From contig OY997645.1 of NCBI GenBank assembly GCA_963921795.1, positions 33,369,382 through 33,433,381 on the forward strand: DNA of 64,000 bases, given 5' to 3'. The notes beneath the pieces are model-generated. The model had not been told where the DNA came from. It worked only from the letters and a program-made list of their open reading frames with translations, and ran no database searches. This DNA is from Nannobrachium achirus (taxonomy: Eukaryota; Chordata; Actinopteri; Myctophiformes; Myctophidae). Made by a program: the position numbers and the translations under genes. The stretch's first letter is position 1. Each line of letters begins with the position of its first letter. This document shows, piece after piece, positions 41,801 through 56,800 of this stretch.

Positions 41801-44800
41801 CTTATTACACTATTACACTATTACACTTATTACACTATTACACTTATTACACTTATTACACTATTACACTTATTGCGCTATTACACTATTACACTTATTA
41901 CACTTATTACACTATTACACTATTACACTTATTACACTATTACACTTATTACACTATTACACTATTACACTATTACACTATTACACTTATTACACTATTA
42001 CACTTATTACACTATTACACTTATTGCGCTATTACACTATTACACTATTACAGTTATTGTGCTATTACACTATTACACTTATTACATTATTACACTATTA
42101 CACTATTAGACTTATTGCGCTATTACACTATTACAATATTACACTTATTACACTATTAAACTTATTACACTATTACATTATTATACTATTACACTTATTA
42201 CACTATTACACTTATTACATTATTACACTATTACACTAATTGCGCTATTACACTATTAGACCTATTACACTATTACACTATTACACTTATTACACTATTA
42301 CACGATTACACTATTACACTTATTGCGCTATAACACTATTACACTATTACACTTATTACACTATTATACTTATTGCGCTATTATACTATTACACTTATTA
42401 AACTATTACACTATTACACTTATTACACTATTACACTTATTGTGCTATTACACTATTACACTTATTGTGCTATTACACTATTACACTTATTACACTATTA
42501 CACTATCACACTTATTACACTATTACACTATTACACTTATTACACTATTACACTATTACACTTATTACACTATTACACTTATTGCGCTATTACACTATTA
42601 CACTTATTACACTTATTACACTATTACACTATTACACTTATTACACTATTACACTTATTACACTATTACACTATTACACTATTACACTTATTACACTATT
42701 ACACTTATTACACTATTACACTTATTGCGCTATTACACTATTACACTATTACAGTTATTGTGCTATTACACTATTACACTTATTACATTATTACACTATT
42801 ACACTTATTGCGCTATTACACTATTACATTTATTGCGCTATTACACTATTACACTTATTGCGCTATTACACTATTACACTTATTACACTATTACACTTAT
42901 GGCACTATTACACTATTACACTTATTACACTATTACACTTATTGTGCTATTACACTATTACACTTATTACAGTATTACACTTATTGCGCTATTACACTAT
43001 TACAGTTATTACACCTAGACACGGTTACACTATTATACTTATTACAAACCATTGAAAATATAGTAATTAGGAACTATCAATAATCGACCAATCAGAAGAG
43101 GTGGCGGGGCTAACTTAAACCAATTAAGAACAAAGACTCTGAAACAAGTCAAATGACTCCACCCAGAAGTTTGTACGACAAACGGTTGATGAGTAATAGC
43201 CAAAATAAGGAACAATCAAGTATCGACCAATCAGAAGAGGGGGCACTTCCTTTTTGGCGAAGGAAGTTTGACGCTTCGCCACGGGCACGCCGTTTTACGA
43301 AAACTCACGATTCGCACAACTTTTCATCGTTAAGGTGTCTTGAGTATGCCGAGCGAATGTGAAGTTGATCCGATTAACTCCCTAAGAGGAGTTCGTTAAA
43401 GTGCGAACCGTGAAAACGGCCAAAAATGCGCCAAAACGCCACTAATTAGTCAAATTGGCTGACTTCCTGTTTGGTTTCGGACATGGCGCCAAGAGACTTT
43501 TTTGTGAATCCGGACATGATACAGGTGTGTACTGATTTTCGTACGTGTAGGTGAAACCGTATAGTGGGGCTGCGCCGTTGGAATTTTCTAGGGGGCGCGG
43601 TTCAGCCATTAGGCCACGCCCCCTTTTGATTTTTTTTTAATACGAAAACTTTCGCCACTTGTGATGTGTGTGCAAAGTTGCGCAACTTTTGGAGTACGTT
43701 TTGCGGCTCAAAAACGCGATTTATTCGGGGGAATAAGAATAAGAATAAGAATTAAAGCTGCAAGCAGCGATGACCGGGCCCTCGGAGCTCTACCCACGTC
43801 ACAAGGGGCAGCAGTTACACTATTACACTTATTGCCCTATTACACTATTACACTTATTTCACTATTACAGTTTTTGCGCTATTACACTATTACACTTATT
43901 ACACTATTACACTATTACACTATTACACTATTACACTTATTGCACTATTACACTATTACACTTATTGTGCTATTACACTATTACACTTATTACACTATTA
44001 CACTATTACACTTATTACACTATTACACTTATTGTGCTATTACACTATTACACTTATTACACTATCACACTTATTACACTATTACACTATTACACTTATT
44101 ACGCTATTACACTTATTGCGCTATTACACTATTACACTATTACACTATTACAGTTATTACACTATTACACTATTACACTTATTGCACTATTACACTATTA
44201 CACTTATTGCGCTATTACACTATTACACTAATACACATATTACACTATTACACTTATTGTGCTGTTACACTATTACACTTATTACACTATTACACTTATT
44301 GTGCTGTTACACTATTACACTTATTACACTATTACACTTATTGAGCTATTACACTATTACACTTATTGCGCTATTACAATATTACACTTATTACACTATT
44401 ACACTATTACAGTTATTACACTATTACACTTATTACACTATTACACTTATTGCGCTATTACACTATTACACTTATTACACTATTACACTATTACACTATT
44501 ACACTTATTAAACTAGTACACTATTAAACTTATTACACTTATTACACTTATTGAGATATTACACTATTACACTTATTGCGCTATTACACTATTACACTTA
44601 TTACACTATTACACTATTACACTATTACACTTATTACACTATTACACTTTTGCGCTGTTACACTATTACAGTTATTACACCTAGACACAGTTACACTATT
44701 GCACTTAGTACAAACCATTGAAAAGATAGCAAATAGGAACTATCAATAATCGACCAATCAGAAGAGGGGGCAGGGCTAATTTAAACCAATTAAGATGAAG

Positions 44801-53800: not shown

Positions 53801-56800
53801 ATAGTGTAATAGCGCAAAAACTGTAATAGTGAAATAAGTGTAATAGTGTAATAGGGCAATAAGTGTAATAGTGTAACTGCTGCCCCTTGTGACGTGGGTA
53901 GAGCTCCGAGGGCCCGGTCATCGCTGCTTGCAGCTTTAATTATTATTATTATTTTCCCGAAAGTAAATCGCGTTTTTGAGGCGCAAAACGTACTCAAAAA
54001 GTTGTGCAACTTTGCACACACATCACAAGTGGCGAAAATTTACGTATTTAAAAAAAAATAAAAGGGGGCGTGGCCTAATGGCGCAACAGCGCCCCCTACA
54101 AAACTTCGTGCCTCAAGCCCCACCATACGGTTTCACCTACACGTACGAAAATCGGTACACATCTGTATCGTGTCCGGACTCACAAAAAAGTCTCTCGGCG
54201 CCACGTCCGAAACCAAACAGGAAGTCAGCCATTTTGACTAATTAGTGGCGTTTTGGTGTATTTTTGGCCGTTTTCACGTGTCGCACTTTAACGAACTCCT
54301 CCTAGGGGGTTAATCGGATCAACTTCAAGTTCGCTCGGCATACTCAAGACACCTTAACGATGAAAAGTTGTGCGAATCGTGAGTTTTCGTAAAACGGCGT
54401 GCCCGTGGCGAAGGGTCAAACTTCCTTCACCAAACAGGAAGTGCCCCCTCTTCTGATTGGTCCATACTTGATTGTTCCTTTTTTTGGCTGTTACTCATCA
54501 ACCGTTTATCGTACAGAGTTGTGGCTGGTATCATATGACTTGATTAAGAGTCCTTAACCTTAATTGATGCTTCCTTCGCCAAACAGGAAGTGCCCTTCAC
54601 CAAACAGGAAGTGCCTCTATAACTCATGAACCGTTTGTCGTACAGACTCGCGGCTGGTGTCATCATTTTTTTTCTCAACATTTTTTTTTCTCAACATTTT
54701 TTTTTTCTCAAAAAATTTTTTTTCTCAAATTTTTTTTTTTTCTCAAAACATTTTTTTTTCTCAAATTTTCTTTTCTCAACATTTTTTTTTCTCAAAAATT
54801 TTTTTTCTCAATTTTTTTTTCTCAAATTTTATTTTTCTCAATTTTTTTTTTCTCAAAAATTTTTTTTTCTCAAATTTTTTTTTCTCAAATTTGTTTTCTC
54901 AAAAAAAAAAAAATCTCAAAAAATTTTTTTTCTCAAAAATTTTTTTTTCCTCAAATTTTTTTTTCTTCACATTTTTTTGCTAACAAAAATGCTAACAAAT
55001 GCTAATGCTAACATGCTAATGCTAACACATGCTAATGCTAACAAATGCTAATGCTAATGTTAACTGCTAATGTTAACAAATGCTAATGCTAACACATGCT
55101 AATTCTAACAAATGCTAATGCTGATTCTTAAATTCTAATGCTAATTGGCTGCTACCCCTTGTGACGTGGGTAGATCTCCGAGGGCCCGGTCATTGCTGCT
55201 TGCAGCTTTAATTATACACATATTACTCCCTTTCTGTCACCACCACTGCACTCTTGAAAATATTTGTGACCAAGGAGATCACGGGCGAATGCAGCCATCG
55301 GTTGGACGTAACGTGCAGTGATTTCATCCAGGTCTTCAAATTCCTTAGGAAACAGAGGTGGGTATGAGGTATGAAAATGAGAACGAAAAGTGTATATTTT
55401 ATGTAGATATCGTCTATGTATATATATTTCATCTGCGTAGAGACCTACAGTAGTAAGTCCCAGAGCCTCACTTCATTGCTGATCCAGAGGGTGTGACCCA
55501 GGCTAAAGGCATTCTCCTTGCCCTCCTCCCGCACATCAATGTGCTGGTAGATTCCTTCAGCTACCTTCCAGGTGACGGTTAGGTGGTTCTCCCCCTTGCT
55601 GCTTGGTCTGATTATCAGGTCTCCCTGGTCCATGGACTCCATCATCTTCTCCGCCTGCTTAAAGTTGATGTTATGGAAGGACGGGTGGGCGATCACTCTC
55701 TTTATGTAGGCTACAGAGAGAGAGAGAGAGAAGCAAAGCCAATATTTAAGCAACAAAAATTGTAGTACGCATTATTAGTCAAGTAAGGATGTACAGTCTT
55801 TACACACAGGGCGTTTTTTCATGCCGATATACTGTATTTTGTGTCATAAGTATATCCACACAGAACAAAATGTTTTTATTTTATTTATTCTCAATGAGGT
55901 TGAGCAAAAGTATCAAAGAGTACGAATTATGGATCAGCTATATCAATAATAATAATCACCAACACATTTTTGGATCAATTATTGATCACGCCATGGGTGT
56001 GTGAAGAAGATGGGGCAAAGCAAAGGGTTACAAACTTGTTCTGTGCTGTTTCATCTTTGCCTCTTCCTCTTTCTTCACGTCTTCACTCTCATTATCAAAG
56101 TCATAGTAAGTGTCTTTGGGAAGCTTCCAGTCATTGTTCTTGTCTGACAGGTCTGATGTCCGACAGGTCAGGTCTACGCTGAGCTTCTCTATGTCAATCT
56201 TCATGATTCTACAGTGCACAGTCATGCCAACCTACAATATTGAGCACATATCTTACAATCAAGTGACATAGAAGCATACTGTATATTGGTGGTACTCTCT
56301 ATTGGACAAAGCCTGGTCAAACACTATCAAAGTGTTGCGTGCAAACACAAGAGTTTGAAGAAATTACTCTCCTGTCCCTTGCCTGTGAATTAAAAAGATG
56401 CTATAGAAATAATCTAAAATACAGTTTATGTGTGAATAAGTAAAACCATATTCATTCAATTGTTTCATTAATTTACTTTTAAATGTTTTTTTGTGTCCTT
56501 AAATTGATAAGTAAAACACTGAATTGCCTTGCCATATTAATCCAAAAACAATGTAACAGGGAGTCAGCTCCTCTGTTGCTACAACAAAGAGTGGCTGCAG
56601 AAGTGATTGATAGATTTTCTTTACCTGCTTATCACCTAACTGACATGTAAGATTGCTTTTTAAGACATGACTATCTTAACTCAATGTGGCGTTTATAGGC
56701 CGTGGATGTTATGTTGTGCATTTGTAGACTTTTTTTTATGCAATTTCTTTCTTCTGTTTATAACTTATTATTAAATGTATATATTTTTTTACTTTTACAA

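Follow-up and report, generated by a model that had tools for sequence, protein, structure and literature searches.

The window analysed here is a 64-kb stretch of the Nannobrachium achirus genome (C8:33369382-33433381, in a 1.66-Gb assembly of 564 contigs) that contains no N. Within it, repeat modules in an intron of supt6h form a 5-kb block, which is succeeded by an almost identical copy in mirror orientation, as seen in a gapped alignment of the assembled sequence. The host gene is recognizable on both sides of the repeats. The exon to their right corresponds to residues 1406-1444 of human-type SPT6 (chain 6ted_M, E value 5.5e-18) and the one to their left to residues 1445-1486 of that chain (E value 2.2e-19); a further exon at 55481-55720 matches SPT6 residues 1327-1403 (E value 2e-44). 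The right and left exons are adjacent in SPT6 and, therefore, the insert lies within one supt6h intron and its outer flanks are correctly ordered.

The whole insert spans ~17.7 kb (37557-55213) and consists of a + array, M1-M2-M3-A-B-C, followed by a - array, C'-B'-A'-M4'. START motifs were located on the + strand at 37559, 38675, 40606, 43752, 45550 and 46892, and on the - strand at 50782, 52125, 53923 and 55195; the outermost two, at 37559 and 55195, mark the ends of the insert and point inwards. Module A (43750-45547, +) comprises START, a TTACAC minisatellite of ~0.9 kb, 138-bp repeats and a body; module B (45548-46889, +) is made of an A-rich tract, a body and two tail units; and module C (46890-48851, +) contains START, a minisatellite, a body and three tail units. 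The mirrored series on the - strand is formed by modules C' (48852-50801), B' (50802-52143) and A' (52144-53941). The tail units that terminate modules B and C measure ~52-60 bp. Four of them fold as hairpins (z scores from -2.45 to -3.78); folding of the START strand is unremarkable (z score -0.50).

The left arm of the palindrome (43751-48851, +, 5101 bp) was aligned with the reverse complement of the right arm (48852-53940, -, 5089 bp). Over 5102 columns, the two differ by seven substitutions and five indel events. The 10.2-kb near-perfect palindrome described in an earlier note, which was made from the letters of the window, is thus present in the assembly, with three modules per arm (A, B and C, the last ending in three hairpin tail units). 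A self-BLAST of the window retrieved the palindrome together with its weaker flanks as the longest inverted match (43121-54566, 98.5%). Modules A and A' are 100% identical over 1798 bp, B and B' differ by three substitutions and one indel, and the minisatellite of module C (46955-47837) is identical in C and C'. Neither the A nor the C minisatellite shows any difference between the arms, including differences in length. In our judgement, chance is unable to yield 5 kb at ~99.9% identity. The pairing had previously been expressed as a constant coordinate sum of 97691. This sum applies from 43751 to ~45857, where ungapped pairing slips through a 1-bp indel and for which reason the gapped alignment was used instead; further in, the sum is 97690, and over the last 120 bases four small indels make it drift to 97702. 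Two differences given as examples are real, although the pairs 47932/49759 and 46004/51687 become 47931/49759 and 46004/51686 once gaps are allowed.

It is noticeable that the differences are unevenly distributed. Only five of the 12 (four substitutions and one indel) fall in the outer 4982 columns, where the differences are as isolated as had been noticed and the sole indel is of 1 bp. The inner 119 columns hold the other seven (three substitutions and four indels), against 0.28 expected under a uniform distribution (binomial p = 2.7e-9). The sequence GGGCCCTAATTAGGGCCC, reported earlier as the axis, does lie there (48843-48860), but the perfect central palindrome is longer, at 50 bp (48827-48876). 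It sits in a divergent centre (48733-48958) in which units L2 and L3 (+, CAATTAC type) face units R3 and R2 (-, CAAATAC type). The first tail unit of module C is the same in both arms; on the left, the next two belong to the CAATTAC type and have 6-bp linkers, and on the right they belong to the CAAATAC type and have shorter ones. Because the inner two plus two units differ in type, the axis cannot be taken as a clean fold point and the centre looks pre-existing; these units do not resemble fresh duplicates. The centre has the appearance of an older, short inverted repeat carrying young arms, a relative age that we read from the sequence. The palindrome thus shows the arrangement by which fold-back or template switching would be recognized, namely near-identical inverted arms flanking a short, older-looking inverted repeat.

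A centre more divergent than the arms is also expected if the palindrome is an older pair of inverted arrays whose identity has been maintained by gene conversion between the arms, as happens in the palindromes of sex chromosomes, with conversion tracts that miss the centre. The proximity and inverted orientation of the arms would likewise suit conversion. The outer limits of the palindrome fit it less well. Both outer arm ends coincide with the START motif AATTAAAGCTGC, as had been observed before, and homology continues beyond them: the end of M3 on the left (43121-43749, +) and the end of M4' on the right (53942-54566, -) are 92.1% identical; 49 of 617 aligned sites mismatch overall, and 21 of 288 within the nearest 300 flank bases. 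Identity therefore steps from ~99.9% in the arms to ~92% in the flanks precisely at the (AAT)n/START boundary, the head-to-tail joint of array modules, whereas conversion tracts would be expected to have scattered ends. A template switch at the shared (AAT)n explains this outer step more easily than conversion tracts do. Two further observations speak against conversion, namely the minisatellites of modules A and C, which show no length difference between the arms, and a tail-to-tail element pair on C18 (L010), which has not been homogenized, its inverted arms being 88.7% alike. We consider gene conversion an unlikely origin of the arm identity, albeit one to be taken seriously.

Other copies of the family show how far the similarity of the arms is informative. 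A 261-base piece across the A/B boundary is found at 99-100% identity in 38 other places among the 40 scored, and a 261-base piece of module C is found over its whole length at 98-100% in 23 other places among the best 40 of 1303 candidates. A copy 98 kb upstream even matches the left arm at 100% over the C piece, which equals the closeness of the right arm. Identity of single pieces is weak evidence because the A/B and C pieces have such near-identical copies elsewhere, and the recent duplication that the earlier note mildly favoured is better argued from the whole composite with its identical minisatellites. The A piece, among the best 40 of 1364 candidates, reaches 100% in the two arms and nowhere else, followed by a match at 99%. 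Comparison of module C with the copy 98 kb upstream gave 16 substitutions and 11 gap events, part of the gaps being one missing tail unit, and comparison of C with C' gave four and five, respectively; within the minisatellite, the upstream copy differs from C by 10 substitutions and seven gap events and the arms by none. Over the whole of module C, the two arms resemble each other more than they resemble the upstream copy, and none of 24 loci of 10 kb came as close to the arm as its mirror copy. A search with a long query scored the best two of 2323 candidates, both of which were the arms themselves, and is uninformative on third copies. The simplest reading of these sequences would be that the whole block shares a recent common descent.

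The same comparisons bear on the possibility that two mobile 5.1-kb A-B-C composites, each running from START to END, inserted tail to tail. All arm ends do lie on family termini, with START outside and END inside, the C piece recurs in the 23 other places given above, and the C-like copy 98 kb upstream ends with END beside non-repeat DNA. However, among the 41 A-piece and 40 C-piece matches scored, only the two arms contain an A-C pair at the arm spacing of 3.1 kb. One further A-C pair, on C15, is 1.8 kb apart and leaves no room for an intervening B, and the sequence that precedes the upstream C-like copy resembles the end of B at only 87.6%. On the matches scored, transposition of such composites is very improbable.

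By exact pattern, at least 423 head-to-tail junctions of the family (181 + 242) and at least six tail-to-tail junctions with 0-14 bases between the units were detected in the assembly, the palindrome of the window among the latter, and no START-START junction was retrieved; these counts are lower bounds, the junction of L010 on C18 being of a type missed by the pattern. Three of the other five tail-to-tail junctions are on C5 (L033-L035) and near-identical to one another, and the remaining two are at C8:59.52 Mb (L009) and C19:56.80 Mb (L037). At all five, a single + unit stands opposite a - unit. Long near-identical arms were absent from every one of them in the stretches examined (10 kb at C8:59.52 Mb and 3 kb at each of the C5 and C19 loci). 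Within the 3-kb stretches, the best inverted match across the axis was 457 bp at 87% on C5 and 54 bp at 93% on C19, and the 10 kb at C8:59.52 Mb contained no inverted pair above 300 bp and 85%. Exact tail-to-tail junctions are rare, and the short ones found elsewhere lack long near-identical arms in the stretches examined. In the 24 loci of 10 kb, a sample that is not random, most having been picked via matches to the palindrome centre, an inverted pair above 300 bp and 85% occurred in three (L010, L011 and L025), and the most similar of these pairs was 480 bp at 97.3%.

At C8:59.52 Mb, the - tail units that face the single + unit are those of a - module that is C-like, at 98% along the 261-base C piece. 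From its sequence, this junction appears much like the right half of the window centre without a mirrored arm, and the locus supports, without proving, that the seed junction came first. The inner units could be read at four of the five loci examined, and at all four a CAATTAC-type unit faces a CAAATAC-type unit. With unit-type counts of 106 and 63, we estimate that chance would give a mixed pair at roughly one locus in two, and the loci are maybe not independent, so that the mixed pairing at the axes is only suggestive. A broader proposal, which we regard as doubtful, is that the END-END junction is an old, recurrent, quasi-palindromic and built-in seed that occasionally folds back and duplicates blocks of the array in inverted orientation. 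Were this so, the repeat family would generate its own long palindromes in introns.

Variants that distinguish the arms were polarized by counting 17-mers in the 24 loci of 10 kb (L009-L032). The left-arm allele at 46004 had no copies, against 63 for the other allele. Likewise, no copies were found of the right-arm alleles that partner 45923 (92 for the alternative) and 47931 (two for the alternative); at 45772, polarity was not clear (one versus six). Private substitutions are thus present in both arms. The arm divergence in the outer columns is 8.0e-4 (four substitutions in 4982 columns). At a fish mutation rate near 3.5e-9 per site and generation, this would place the duplication some 1e5 generations ago in order of magnitude, a minimum age if the arms have undergone conversion.

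These variants also bear on whether the palindrome is real or whether a fold-back read or a false inverted join created one of the arms during sequencing or assembly. The palindrome is known from the assembly, and PMC10766186 describes long palindromes that have little or no spacer as unstable and uncommon in natural genomes. Fold-back reads made up 0.55-0.6% of the Oxford Nanopore Technologies genomic reads reported in PMC12870357, and were virtually nil in the PacBio HiFi data of that study. Moreover, four of the five outer differences lie within the A-rich tract at 45723-46050, the part of the arms where errors are most to be expected. On the other hand, a fold-back read returns to the flank from which it started, and here the two flanks differ and lead to adjacent exons of one gene. 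The window is free of N, the arms differ by private alleles on both sides and by only one 1-bp indel outside the centre, and the left flank occurs once in the assembly, its only further match being 132 bases at 74% on C19. A fold-back artefact fits poorly because the arms, where whole modules were compared, are nearer to each other than to other copies, carry private substitutions and have distinct flanks that lead into adjacent exons. We regard it as rather unlikely.

Considering these alternatives, we find it somewhat probable that the palindrome arose by a recent fold-back or template-switch inverted duplication of A-B-C, seeded by a tail-to-tail repeat. The template switching put forward in the earlier note therefore survives as the best reading, except that the axis is no clean fold point. 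The observations behind it are the near-identical arms, the divergent centre of mixed type, the sharp limits at the START boundary, the private variants in both arms, and the exact tail-to-tail junctions, which are rare and elsewhere short. The seed would have been a short inverted repeat that was already present within the 17.7-kb array and in which hairpin tail units of the family stood tail to tail. A replication fork may have stalled, or a break may have occurred, at the hairpin tails, whereupon a strand would have annealed or switched within the inverted tail units, by analogy with the work in yeast. A-B-C would then have been copied back in reverse, the duplicated 5-kb block consisting of these modules plus the first tail unit. 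Synthesis may finally have left the arm at the (AAT)n/START boundary and rejoined the resident - module M4' by microhomology. In yeast, inverted repeats are known to give rise to fold-back events (PMC10622511, PMC10164571 and PMC10766186). The palindrome seems to keep both stages of such a process, the older short inverted repeat and the young long arms, and the usual seed model is therefore open to test here.

Several points weigh against this duplication. The palindrome is known from the assembled sequence of one individual, leaving the arm at the START boundary would call for a further switch, and arm-to-arm gene conversion would give much the same picture. Slippage could explain part of the central indel excess, part of the arm identity appears to reflect a young or homogenized family, and sequencing error or fast mutation is likelier in the A-rich tract than elsewhere. 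Origin-dependent inverted-repeat amplification (ODIRA) is expected to produce an inverted triplication, and two copies of the block are seen in the window.

As described in the cited yeast reports (PMC10622511, PMC10164571 and PMC10766186), fold-back inverted duplications and ODIRA resemble the palindrome in having a short, imperfect central inverted repeat with long near-identical arms and in placing the junction at pre-existing inverted repeats. They differ from it in that the structure reported here is interstitial, keeps both flanks, shows no third copy in the window, has its outer limit at a repeat boundary and occurs in a fish genome without known selection. Mammalian sex-chromosome palindromes maintained by gene conversion share an arm identity above 99%, according to PMC8981503; here, by contrast, the arms are 5-kb, noncoding-looking repeats in an intron and end sharply in continuing homology. 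The modules themselves resemble the Helentron-associated elements and DINE-1 of PMC4067079 in their internal tandem repeats and 3'-end hairpin. No subterminal inverted repeats of the HINE kind were detected in module C when its first 60 bases were compared with its last 120 (at least 8 bases, at most one mismatch). Helitrons are defined in the same source by a 5' TC, a 3' CTRR and a hairpin that lies ~11 bp upstream of the 3' terminus. Module C does not fit this definition: it starts with AA and ends with CTAA, and the hairpin stem of the tail unit extends into the end of the unit. A text search of papers gave no match for a 19-base motif, and no title on this repeat family appeared among the literature matches listed, which is no proof of absence. 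A paper on cod inversions (PMC12368964) was set aside, as it concerns hAT-derived miniature inverted-repeat transposable elements.

Within the insert, module M3 (40604-43749) has a start that is 97.6% like C and an end that is 97.1% like M2 at aligned sites; from this it looks chimeric, pointing to sequence exchange inside the array. On C1, the family forms a large array at 71053898-71444195, where the listed head-to-tail junctions are on the - strand at 71.05-71.27 Mb and on the + strand at 71.31-71.44 Mb, and so, among the matches listed, it would comprise two big arrays in opposite orientation. Two loci in this region (L015 and L016, at C1:71.44 and 71.40 Mb) have a nearly equal module order 40.5 kb apart, diverging towards the right end, and are likely a direct segmental duplication. 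At C16:14358751-14379090, four matches recur at intervals of ~6.7 kb, suggestive of a higher-order tandem repeat.

The left flank of the insert (37398-37561, to be compared with 55210-55238 on the right) contains a ~95-bp tandem duplication of the supt6h intron, including donor-like sequence. The donor-like copies are at 37473-37492 and 55219-55238, and the insert sits inside the second of the two duplicates. Originally, the intron was probably not much longer than 100 bp. If the locus is transcribed, the precursor RNA of supt6h would bear a 5-kb hairpin. The 132-base match to the exon left of the insert, at C19:8574026-8574157 (74%), is perhaps a paralogue.

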